Of a DNA stretch of 34,284 bases, positions 7,413 through 10,913 are shown in pieces; the stretch's first letter is position 1; the number at the start of each line of letters is the position of its first letter. Under the pieces are notes generated by a model that was not told the origin of the DNA, did no database searches, and worked only from the letters and a program-made list of their open reading frames with translations. A program made the translations under genes and the position numbers. Location of the stretch: assembly GCA_016204585.1 (NCBI GenBank), contig JACQKH010000074.1:1-34284 (forward strand), given 5' to 3'. This DNA comes from Candidatus Kerfeldbacteria bacterium (lineage in GTDB: Bacteria; Patescibacteriota; Patescibacteriia; SBBC01).

Positions 7413-8453
7413 TTATTCATGCAGCCAAAACCACAACTGATTTTCAAGTTTTTCCCGCAGCTTATAGCTATTTGCGTGTGATAGAACCCCACGATAGGAC
7501 TGCAGGGATTGTTCCAACCTTTCTTTGGTTATCTTTTCGGCTTTATACGCTTGTGCCTTCTGCCGAAGCTTTTTGAATATCCGCTGTCTCGTTTTCGTTC
7601 GCACAAGCTGATGATGCGGAAAAATCGTGTAGCCGAGGAAATCAATGCCCTGGCCGAGCTTTCGAATGCTGGTTTTCTTCGGGTGAAGGTTTAATGCTAA
7701 GGTTTGAGATAGAAAAAGATGGATTGGCTCGATCAAAGTTTCTAGATATTCTTTTTCATTGGACAGAATAATGAAGTCATCAGTGTACCGGGCATAATAC
7801 TTCACCTTTAGAACGTGTTTCACAAACTGATCAAACTCGTTCATGTACACGTTGGCAAAGAGTTGCGAGGTTAGATTGCCGATTGGCAGTCCTTTTGCTT
7901 CTGTTTTACTGTCCGAGAAACTACCAATGATTTCCTCCAGTAACCAGTGTGCGTCCGGGTCTTGCAATTTTCGCTTGAGCATGGTAAGGAGTATTGGCTG
8001 ATCGATACGGAAGAAGAACTTTTGTGCGTCGCACTTTAAAGCAAAGCACGGCCGCGTATCATTCCGGCTCACCTGCCTAGCCATTCTGGTCACCGCTTCA
8101 ACGCCTTTGTGCGTTCCCTTGTTTATTCGGCACGAAAACGAGTTGGGAATGAATGTCGGCTCGAATATGGGATTGAGAGCAGAAAACATTGCGTGATGCA
8201 GTATCCGGTCTCGCACTGATGCCTTGTGAATGTGCCGTTGCTTCGGGTCGTGAATGTAAAACGAGGTATATGTCCCGTGCCGATACTTCCTAGATCGCAA
8301 GTCACGGTGAAGTTGGAATAGGTTCGGTTCCAAATTCACCTCGTATTCCAAAACGTCCGGCTTGTTTCCTTTGTCGCTGTGAAACGCCTCCCACGCGGCA
8401 AACAGATTTTCTACCGAAATAATCCGCTCGTAAATATTATTAAACACTTTCAT
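7413..8453 (-). CDS. DGR-type reverse transcriptase
   Basis: 346 aa; catalytic YARYTDDFIIL (YxDD), GLPIGNLTSQLFANVYMNEFDQFVKH with the IGxxxSQ signature typical of DGR RTs, RDRILHHAMFSALNPIFEPTF, SFSCRINKGTHKGVEAV. Confidence 0.95.
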   Translation of the reverse strand: MKVFNNIYERIISVENLFAAWEAFHSDKGNKPDVLEYEVNLEPNLFQLHRDLRSRKYRHGTYTSFYIHDPKQRHIHKASVRDRILHHAMFSALNPIFEPTFIPNSFSCRINKGTHKGVEAVTRMARQVSRNDTRPCFALKCDAQKFFFRIDQPILLTMLKRKLQDPDAHWLLEEIIGSFSDSKTEAKGLPIGNLTSQLFANVYMNEFDQFVKHVLKVKYYARYTDDFIILSNEKEYLETLIEPIHLFLSQTLALNLHPKKTSIRKLGQGIDFLGYTIFPHHQLVRTKTRQRIFKKLRQKAQAYKAEKITKERLEQSLQSYRGVLSHANSYKLREKLENQLWFWLHE

Positions 8454-8456
8454 GCC

Positions 8457-8957
8457 ATGGATGGATTAGATGTCCCGATTTTGAAGAAAACGTATGCCCT
8501 CTACAAAGACCTGAACGGCCTTCGGGTTCGCGTTCCCAAACAGGATCGTTACACGCTTTGGGAGCGTTGTGAAAAGACGAATTTGGAAGTCTTGGAACTC
8601 ATGATGCTCGCGGCCCAGCGGCAGAAACCGGACAAGTACAGCGCTTTAGAGATAGCTAGCGCAAAGTTAAATGTCCTGCGCGTGCTTATCCGACTTGCGA
8701 AGGATGTGAAAGCGATCGACACGAAACGCTACCTTGCACTCGAATTGCAAATAGATGAAATTGGACGGATGCTCGGCGGCTGGATGTGGTCAATTATCGC
8801 CCCCCCCCCCGACTTAACGAAAGTTTTGTCCAACGAAAGGGCATTCCTGCGGGAATGCCCTTTGCCGTTATTGAGGAATGACTTCGGGAACCAGAGCGAG
8901 GCCGAACCGAACTTCTCATTGGGATTGTCGACGTTGTTCGTGTCAGTCTTGACCTGA
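8457..8957 (+). CDS. avd: Avd-like four-helix-bundle DGR accessory protein; C-terminus of this frame doubtful
   Basis: MDGLDVPILKKTYALYKDLNGLRVRVPKQDRYTLWERCEKTNLEVLELMMLAAQ...ALEIASAKLNVLRVLIRLAKDVKAIDTKRYLALELQIDEIGRMLGGWMWSI matches the Avd/four-helix-bundle family pattern. ATG 8457 is internal to listed ORF 8379-8957. Residues after the C11 tract (8800-8810) look non-homologous. Confidence 0.85.
   Translation: MDGLDVPILKKTYALYKDLNGLRVRVPKQDRYTLWERCEKTNLEVLELMMLAAQRQKPDKYSALEIASAKLNVLRVLIRLAKDVKAIDTKRYLALELQIDEIGRMLGGWMWSIIAPPPDLTKVLSNERAFLRECPLPLLRNDFGNQSEAEPNFSLGLSTLFVSVLT
8800..8810 (+). repeat. 11-C homopolymer in the 3' part of avd
   Basis: Direct reading: atcg-ccccccccccc-gactta. 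Confidence 0.95.
8836..8863. other. 12-bp perfect inverted repeat with 4-nt loop, between avd core and TR
   Basis: AAAGGGCATTCC (8836-8847) TGCG GGAATGCCCTTT (8852-8863). Confidence 0.9.
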
Positions 8958-9010: not shown

Positions 9011-9397
9011 AATATTGTCTTTGCCCATCTATATCACCGGCGGGTTGTCCGTTTTAGGACTTCCCCCTGTATATTATTTGGCAGCAGCTCCAACTTCTTG
9101 GAACACCTGCACCAGGCAAAGACAAGCAGTATTTCCTCAATGCAACGCACTCGTGTAAGCCGTGACCTACACGACTCTGGTTGTATTCTTTTGAAGAAAG
9201 AGTTCGGCGACGGCAACCCGTAAGCGGCCGTACATGAGCCTAGTCTCCAAAAATAGTTTATCAGAATATTTGGACAAAAAGAAGACGGGCTACCCAGACA
9301 CTCTGACTGTACTAGCCAAGGTGTGGATAACCCGTCGGTTGCGAACGCAAGGATCAAAAGTCGATAGACCCAGGCGTTCAAGTTTCGAAGAGCAGTT
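9011..9397 (-). other. non-coding spacer between VR and TR, probable leader/upstream region of TR RNA
   Basis: No plausible protein in either strand; contains a 7-bp hairpin TCGTGTA(9151-9157)/TACACGA(9168-9174). Lies directly upstream of TR in TR orientation. Confidence 0.5.
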
Positions 9398-10304
9398 ACT
9401 GCGGGAACCAGAGCGAGGCCGAACCGAACAGCCCATAGGGATCGTCGACGCTGTCCGCGTCAGTCTCGACCTGACCGCCGTTCGAGCGGAAGTACGGAGC
9501 CCTGTCGAACTGGCCATCGGCGCCCAGCGAGTACTCGTCGCCGGGGAAGTCGACGAACAGGCCGTTGTCGGTGATTCGCTCGGGGTGCGTCAAAAGCATG
9601 CATCCCCCAGCCAACCATCCAGCGCCGAACTGATTGCCCATGAGGAGCTCACGGACTCGCAGGACGGACATCCCGCCGTACAGCTTGCCGAACTGGCCAG
9701 GCAGTACAGCGATGTCGCCCGGCTGCTGCTCGCTGACCCGCTTCCAGAAGGAGACGGAGCGAACGTGCTGCCGGAGACGATCGGGACCGAGCTGTCCCTT
9801 ACGCCAGTTGGTGAAGTCTCGGGACGAAGCGAGCTTGTCGTCGAGGATGAGCTGCACCCCACGACAGTAACGATCGGCATCGCCGGTGACGTCGGGGAAG
9901 TGCTTTCCCGCAACTCCATCGACCGTGGCGAATGCGTACCAGCCATCGGCCTCGTCGGGAACCGTGATCTTCGGCACCGCCTGGTCGATGAAGGTAAAGG
10001 CGCGGTCGGGTGAAAGCGAGAGCGTGTCGGCCAGCATCTCCACCTGCCGCCTGATCGGCTTCACGGCGAATCCAAGCGGGTACGTTCGCGTGCAGCGGAC
10101 GACCTGGTTGGCGTACTGGTTGGAAGCCGAGAACTTCCGAATCGTCGCCAGCCACTCGGCCTGTGCCTCGCCGCCGCGTTCCCAGAGGCGTTGCGCGCCC
10201 TCTTCGTCCAGCTTGGCCTTGTTGAACGTGTCGTCGAACAGACGAGTGATCGCGAGGCCCTTGTCATCACGGGACGTGATCAATGACACCGTCTTGGTGG
10301 CCAT
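9396..10304 (-). CDS. DGR target (variable) protein with C-terminal variable region
   Basis: Listed ORF 9396-10340; the preferred start is ATG at 10304 (MATKTVSLITSRDDKG...), preceded by AGGGAGG. C-terminus GADGQFDRAPYFRSNGGQVETDADSVDDPYGLFGSASLWFPQ* is encoded by VR. Confidence 0.92.
   Translation of the reverse strand: MATKTVSLITSRDDKGLAITRLFDDTFNKAKLDEEGAQRLWERGGEAQAEWLATIRKFSASNQYANQVVRCTRTYPLGFAVKPIRRQVEMLADTLSLSPDRAFTFIDQAVPKITVPDEADGWYAFATVDGVAGKHFPDVTGDADRYCRGVQLILDDKLASSRDFTNWRKGQLGPDRLRQHVRSVSFWKRVSEQQPGDIAVLPGQFGKLYGGMSVLRVRELLMGNQFGAGWLAGGCMLLTHPERITDNGLFVDFPGDEYSLGADGQFDRAPYFRSNGGQVETDADSVDDPYGLFGSASLWFPQ
9398..9527 (-). repeat. DGR variable repeat (VR)
   Basis: See TR; VR ends one codon before the target gene stop (TAA at 9396-9398). 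Confidence 0.97.
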
Positions 10305-10377
10305 CGTCATCATCCTCCCTAAGAAAGGGACATTGTCCAAGTGCGCCTTGAACGGGCGTGCTTTGGCGTGAGTGTAA

Positions 10378-10428
10378 TAGCCGCAGCGCTTAGACCAGGT
10401 TATTTCACTGATCTAGGCGCTACGGCTA
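10378..10428. other. 17-bp near-perfect inverted repeat between RNase HI gene and DGR target gene
   Basis: TAGCCGCAGCGCTTAGA (10378-10394) vs TCTAGGCGCTACGGCTA (10412-10428); one mismatch and one G-U type pair, 17-nt loop. Confidence 0.8.
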
Positions 10429-10490
10429 CCTCTATTTATTCCGCAGTGTTATCAAAGAACAACCGATACTAACATCGGGCTACGAAAATG

Positions 10491-10913
10491 TCAATACCCG
10501 GCAGCGTCGAGGGTTTGGTTGACCTGCCAGTCGGCTTGGGCGTTCTCGGCTCGAGGAACAGCCACGAAACGAACGCGTTTGAACCCCTGAGCCAGGTTCC
10601 AAACGCGCAAGAAAATCTTGCCCAGTTCCGGGTCCTTGATTTTGTATTCTCGCCGCAACTGACTGGCCACCAGCTCGCTGTCAAGCTTGACCGTCAGGTC
10701 AGTGCCGCCTAGCGCCTGGGCGCGTCGAAGTCCTTCCTCAACGGCCAGATACTCGGCCTGATTGTTCGTCAGGCGTTGGCCGATGAACTTGCCAAATATC
10801 TCCAACACCTGTCCACCTTCTTTAATCACCACACCGATGGCCGCCGGGCCCGGGTTTCCTCTAGCCCCCCCGTCGGTATAGATTTCGAAAACTCGAGGCG
10901 TCCGCAATTTCAC
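10491..10913 (-). CDS. ribonuclease HI family protein
   Basis: 140 aa; FEIYTDGGARGNPGPAAIGVVI, NNQAEYLAVEEGL, VKLDSELVASQLRREYKIK, PRAENAQAD. Confidence 0.93.
   Translation of the reverse strand: MKLRTPRVFEIYTDGGARGNPGPAAIGVVIKEGGQVLEIFGKFIGQRLTNNQAEYLAVEEGLRRAQALGGTDLTVKLDSELVASQLRREYKIKDPELGKIFLRVWNLAQGFKRVRFVAVPRAENAQADWQVNQTLDAAGY

Follow-up and report, generated by a model that had tools for sequence, protein, structure and literature searches.

Among the systems closest to the one described here are the clade 2 targets of CPR bacteria in the large DGR survey of Roux et al. (2021), which have no membrane features; whether they are genuinely non-membrane-bound was left to be established (PMC8144416), and the target family of this work speaks to that question. 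Reviews of the CPR tie DGRs to host attachment (PMC10221324), and cytoplasmic DGR sensors of conflict systems have been described that are coupled to MoxR/STAND NTPases (Dore et al. 2024, PMC10907252); a passage of the same paper, citing Paul 2017, names AAA-CLec as the commonest CPR DGR target architecture. A C-type lectin (CLec) fold is also present in Bd2740 (8oks), whose trimer is Mtd-like (PMC10769870). The DGR mechanism and CPR DGR targets as a class are already known; what this work adds is a target family, its natural activity, its predicted fold, which would display the variable residues on one side, its carriage by phages, and the absence of export signals across the family.

The window, by which we mean the whole 34,284-nt stretch of Candidatus Kerfeldbacteria DNA that was analysed, holds a DGR which, as read from its sequence, is bona fide and intact, with reverse transcriptase (RT), Avd, template repeat (TR) and variable repeat (VR) all in place (Table 1). 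We give a probability of roughly 0.6 to the reading that its target is a soluble CLec-like hypervariable recognition protein of an intact, Patescibacteria-type DGR, and that it most likely works inside the cell.

Table 1. Features of the window DGR and of a second DGR in the same genome
Feature	Position	Strand	Evidence and remarks
DGR reverse transcriptase, 346 aa, intact	7413..8453	-	RVT_1 1.3e-21; phrog_1423 7e-117; YTDD and IGNLTSQ motifs (read by eye from the sequence)
avd accessory gene (four-helix bundle)	8460..8815	+	NF033474 83.4 bits (cut-off 80); bAvd PF22296 62 bits; phrog_3206
Hairpin, perfect 12-bp stem, 4-nt loop	8836..8863	.	17 nt downstream of TR, between converging TR and avd
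TR, 130 nt, 32 adenines, 22 A-containing codons	8881..9010	-	Repeat search and alignment
VR, 130 nt, residues ~260-302	9398..9527	-	Repeat search and alignment
DGR target protein, 302 aa	9396..10304	-	ORF with ribosome-binding site (GGGAGG at 10314-10319, 9-nt spacer, start codon ATG at 10304; stop codon 9396-9398); family alignment; AlphaFold
C-terminal domain, residues 192-302, predicted C-type lectin fold, holding all variable residues	9396..9731	-	Model m7bb901e59223
Second DGR (locus L152)	Target 8338-8955; VR 8824-8950; TR 9320-9446; RT 9861-10844		G000:C19

TR and VR are direct copies 517 bp apart. On the coding (-) strand they differ by 15 substitutions, every one of them at a TR adenine (10 A>G, 3 A>C and 2 A>T). 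As adenines make up 32 of the 130 bases, this would happen by chance with a probability of ~7e-10. The substitutions sit in 13 codons, all are non-synonymous, and they alter 13 C-terminal residues of the target. The first mismatch at a base other than adenine lies at 9397, immediately beyond the repeat, and turns the codon TCA of TR into the stop codon TAA of the target. Genome-wide, full-length matches of TR are confined to TR itself and the window VR. The A-containing codons of TR give it the capacity to code for ~5e18 protein sequences, and only four of its codons, all AAG, are able to turn into a stop.

The same pattern extends to the relatives of the target. In the 24 pooled loci with a clear TR/VR pair, of which the window is one, TR adenines account for 456 of 464 mismatches and other bases for 8, codon changes are non-synonymous in 362 cases against 6 synonymous ones, and adenine occupies the third codon position in only 13 of 784 cases; the template is thus tuned for residue change. 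The same columns vary across the 24 loci, most of all 268, 273, 275, 278, 280, 284, 288, 290, 292 and 302. Direct evidence of ongoing diversification of the family comes from its phage relatives, not from the window genome: the phage contigs L141 and L142 differ at 22 positions over 9516 bp, of which 20 lie within the 131-bp VR (P ~1e-35) and 15 of these 20 at TR adenines, and the two TRs are identical. Because the differences are almost confined to VR, the target family is actively diversified. The sequence-only reading had taken the protein for a DGR target with 15 substitutions, all non-synonymous, and 13 differing residues; the counts are borne out by the alignment, and the assignment is now strongly supported by the intact RT, Avd, TR and VR, the adenine-only changes and the active diversification in relatives.

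According to the mechanism we propose, RT and Avd would copy the TR RNA into cDNA with misincorporation at adenines, and the cDNA would replace the C-terminal VR; these retrohoming steps are established for DGRs. A C-type-lectin-like domain, mounted on an uncharacterised helical N-terminal domain, would in this way have some 20 of its surface residues re-sorted, with codons free of adenine preserving the scaffold. It might be objected that in this genome the cassette is a remnant, silent or in decay, and that the target has no current function here. The avd frame passes through a run of 11 C at 8800-8810 and stays open without a stop to 8957, many members of the target family elsewhere have no RT nearby, and the family is patchy, with relatives in 33 of the 382 genomes sampled from the phylum. 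However, the frame reaching 8957 makes a sequencing indel or slippage at the C run likely, the 3' end of avd being uncertain on account of that run, and the run itself may be a sequencing error. Moreover, RT, TR, VR and target are intact and the repeat changes are adenine-only, which puts homing at a recent date on the time scale of neutral drift. We therefore hold a remnant to be very improbable.

The arrangement of the cassette, with RT and avd head-to-head and TR beyond Avd, is the rule: it recurs in the RT-bearing loci of the target family and in 20 further RT loci, nearly all of which have other targets. RTs similar to that of the window occur in 124 of the 382 genomes. Throughout this RT lineage the start codons of RT and Avd face one another on opposite strands, often a few bases apart (8451-8462 in the window; also L065-L143 and L152-L170), so that the promoters would lie inside the opposite gene, or RT expression would have to rely on the TR transcript. 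Of 25 TRs checked, 20 are followed by a strong hairpin (stem ≥8 bp) that starts ~12-20 nt downstream; such a hairpin occurs in 2% of random 60-mers and was found downstream of no VR. Its role may be to give the TR RNA its end or its shape, or to stop the converging transcripts of TR and avd. The same genome carries a second complete DGR on contig C19, which serves a 205-aa target of a different family and whose TR and VR differ by 11 changes, all of them at adenines. The organism thus has at least two diversified proteins.

The target is present in one copy in the 1.04-Mb assembly. Neither the protein nor its alignment found a relative in sequence searches of Pfam, NCBIfam, PHROGs or the PDB, so that by these comparisons it is the founder of a family absent from those collections; the phage records searched with it gave no match either. 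In a scan at one genome per species we found 76 target loci, nearly all in Patescibacteria bins; a few were in bins labelled Acidobacteria, Deltaproteobacteria or Loktanella, which may be misbinned. Three IMG/VR contigs also hold the target family. An apparent open frame of 23,325 aa in G323 was discarded as a masked N stretch. At another locus (L062, 5852-6661) the N-terminal motif of the family is fused to a variable C-terminal domain that belongs to a different CPR type, an apparent case of domain shuffling, and the RT serving this target is the closest one found, with 62% identity.

The AlphaFold model of the full-length target, built with 64 sequences, has a mean pLDDT of 95.6 and a pTM of 0.89, and predicts a helical N-terminal domain (residues ~1-191) followed by a C-type-lectin-like domain (residues ~192-302). 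The best PDB match of the full model is the tip of Bdellovibrio Bd2740 (8oks; TM 0.55 by target length, E 1.5), and TvpA (2y3c), which is a DGR target, is among its weak matches. When the C-terminal domain was modelled in isolation (pLDDT 84.7), its ten best PDB matches were all CLec proteins (TM 0.43-0.57, probability up to 0.82, best E 0.25). With no E below 0.25 for this domain, no Foldseek match at E < 0.001, and TM values at the edge of significance, the CLec fold of this domain is a well-supported prediction, not a proven one. Sequence profiles did not place the domain in a CLec family of Pfam or among PDB sequences, the CLec fold being often undetectable from sequence, and a profile comparison with the C-termini of other CPR DGR targets was not significant, though the same hairpin was aligned in register.

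This beta hairpin (~268-285, strands 268-275 and 278-285) shows how the variable residues may be displayed. Over its residues 269-284, 134 variations fall on residues of one parity and 9 on the other. Given a two-residue turn, the positions that should pair across the strands (275/278, 273/280 and 271/282) all vary, and the alternating fixed residues are mostly hydrophobic (F272 and V279; the family consensus has F at both 274 and 281). Because variable and invariant residues alternate, the variable ones are predicted to line one face, and strand parity points to that face being exposed. The earlier proposal of a C-type-lectin-like surface is favoured by the confident model, the CLec matches and this alternation, and falls short of a Foldseek match at E 0.001. 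Its statement that the fold was unclear no longer describes the C-terminal domain, predicted to be CLec, and remains true of the N-terminal domain, which matches nothing structurally; the mapping of variable residues that it had called for gave a single face, by strand parity on the predicted hairpin.

In an alignment of 64 family members, which spans many CPR lineages and phages, hydropathy and a lipobox scan revealed no convincing signal peptide core or lipobox, and hydropathy revealed no clear TM helix. Some members have a 19-residue hydropathy maximum >1.6 near residues 205-240, a region that forms a short helix of the C-terminal domain in the model. The first description, which saw no obvious signal peptide or TM segment, thus holds by hydropathy and can be extended to the lipobox, and its placing of the protein in the cytoplasm agrees with the missing export signals of the 64 members, an agreement that is not proof. 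We infer that the target is soluble and most likely acts in the cell, where it would most likely be a sensor or decoy for foreign proteins, for example those of phages. The surroundings of the cassette in the window are chromosomal and made up of housekeeping genes. One flank encodes DUF4012, glycosyltransferases and a sugar transferase; the other encodes an RNase H-like protein, RecJ, pyruvate:ferredoxin oxidoreductase and enzymes of glycolysis. The run of glycosyltransferase and sugar-transferase genes, ~0.8 kb past the RT end, would suit a target that is exported non-classically and serves as a surface adhesin attaching the episymbiont to changing hosts. Such an adhesin is the usual assumption for CPR DGRs and the one that reviews make in tying them to attachment (PMC10221324), and the DGR targets of cells are mostly membrane-anchored (PMC8144416). 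Nevertheless, the 64 aligned members have no signal peptide, lipobox or TM segment, and the cassette has no conserved secretion or anchor gene alongside; we consider this role unlikely.

Across the loci of relatives, the target has no conserved neighbour except the cassette itself, which means that neither a secretion partner nor an effector is linked to it; a third group of seemingly conserved neighbours turned out to be an antisense frame of the target. No MoxR/STAND NTPase or effector module was found near the target in relatives' loci or among the window genes. This counts against the sensor role within our preferred, intracellular reading, since a linked effector gene would be expected for a sensor. 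The sole hint of defence is the presence of DNA methylases in some loci. They make up 8 of the 107 neighbour genes in relatives' loci and are seemingly commoner there than in the phylum (where 64 of 97 genomes have matches, ~1-2 per genome), an excess on which we do not rely because several of the methylases come from related loci; the window cassette has no DNA methylase beside it. In L071, L085, L086, L103, L126 and others the cassette has type III restriction-modification genes and other DNA methylases nearby, and a few relatives have serine recombinases there.

A third possibility is that the target is a phage virion protein, for instance one that binds receptors, or has descended from such a protein, the chromosomal copies being domesticated or cargo. 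A signal peptide would then be unnecessary, the DGR targets of phages are mostly tail proteins (PMC8144416), and in two IMG/VR contigs (L141/L142, L172) the cassette stands at most 600 bp from a portal gene and 4.4 kb from a major head gene, directly upstream of both in the L142/L172 contig. Against this, the target matches neither PHROGs nor the viral structure library that was searched with its model, and the window and most other loci lie among housekeeping genes. Furthermore, in 2 of 17 other related phage contigs (L175 and L176) a DGR with the same type of RT sits close to the head genes, and the remaining 15 have no DGR in the stretch examined; as most phages of the lineage possess head genes and lack the cassette, it is accessory there. 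A virion origin is accordingly quite improbable in our judgement. Phages of this head-gene lineage (L172 / L171, L175, L176) carry interchangeable DGR cassettes. The targets of L175 and L176 look AAA-ATPase-like with a variable C-terminus, an assignment that we read from the sequence and not from a profile match, and an AAA-like domain would make these alternate targets cytoplasmic. That the two target types alternate favours action inside the cell over service as a tail fibre, though this evidence is circumstantial. We speculate that one family of soluble cytoplasmic hypervariable binders may be common to Patescibacteria and their phages, providing retroelement-driven recognition without a dedicated effector, perhaps for phage-host or phage-phage conflict; this extension is tentative and, in our estimate, somewhat doubtful.

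With a high-confidence model, defined variable residues and a construct that is probably soluble, the target family makes fold, localisation and ligand directly testable, and the sister phage alleles, which differ almost solely in VR, should aid such tests. A locus from tiny-genome Patescibacteria is a good test case for whether some hypervariable proteins work inside the cell and not on its surface, and both the ligand of this target and its cytoplasmic site of action are at present what we infer from the features above.

Among known systems, the CPR clade 2 targets of Roux et al. (PMC8144416) share with the window a Patescibacterial chromosome, a C-terminal VR and an adenine bias, and likewise have no recognisable TM segment and no conserved N-terminal domain, a likeness in features of the target. 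What differs is that a single target family is resolved in this work, with a confident model, a predicted CLec domain, 24 TR/VR pairs and phage carriers. The conflict sensors of Dore et al. (2024) resemble the window target in being predicted cytoplasmic CLec proteins diversified by DGRs, and differ from it in having a MoxR/STAND partner alongside. The C-terminal domain of Bdellovibrio Bd2740, a calcium-free C-type lectin fold, is the best full-length structural match of the window target; unlike it, however, Bd2740 is a surface-fibre tip that is not diversified by a DGR. Finally, although the window target has no detectable sequence relation to Mtd (Bordetella phage), TvpA (Treponema), AvpA (Nanoarchaeota) or TaqVP (Thermus) and has a different N-terminal domain, all four carry their variable residues on a CLec fold, as is predicted here.
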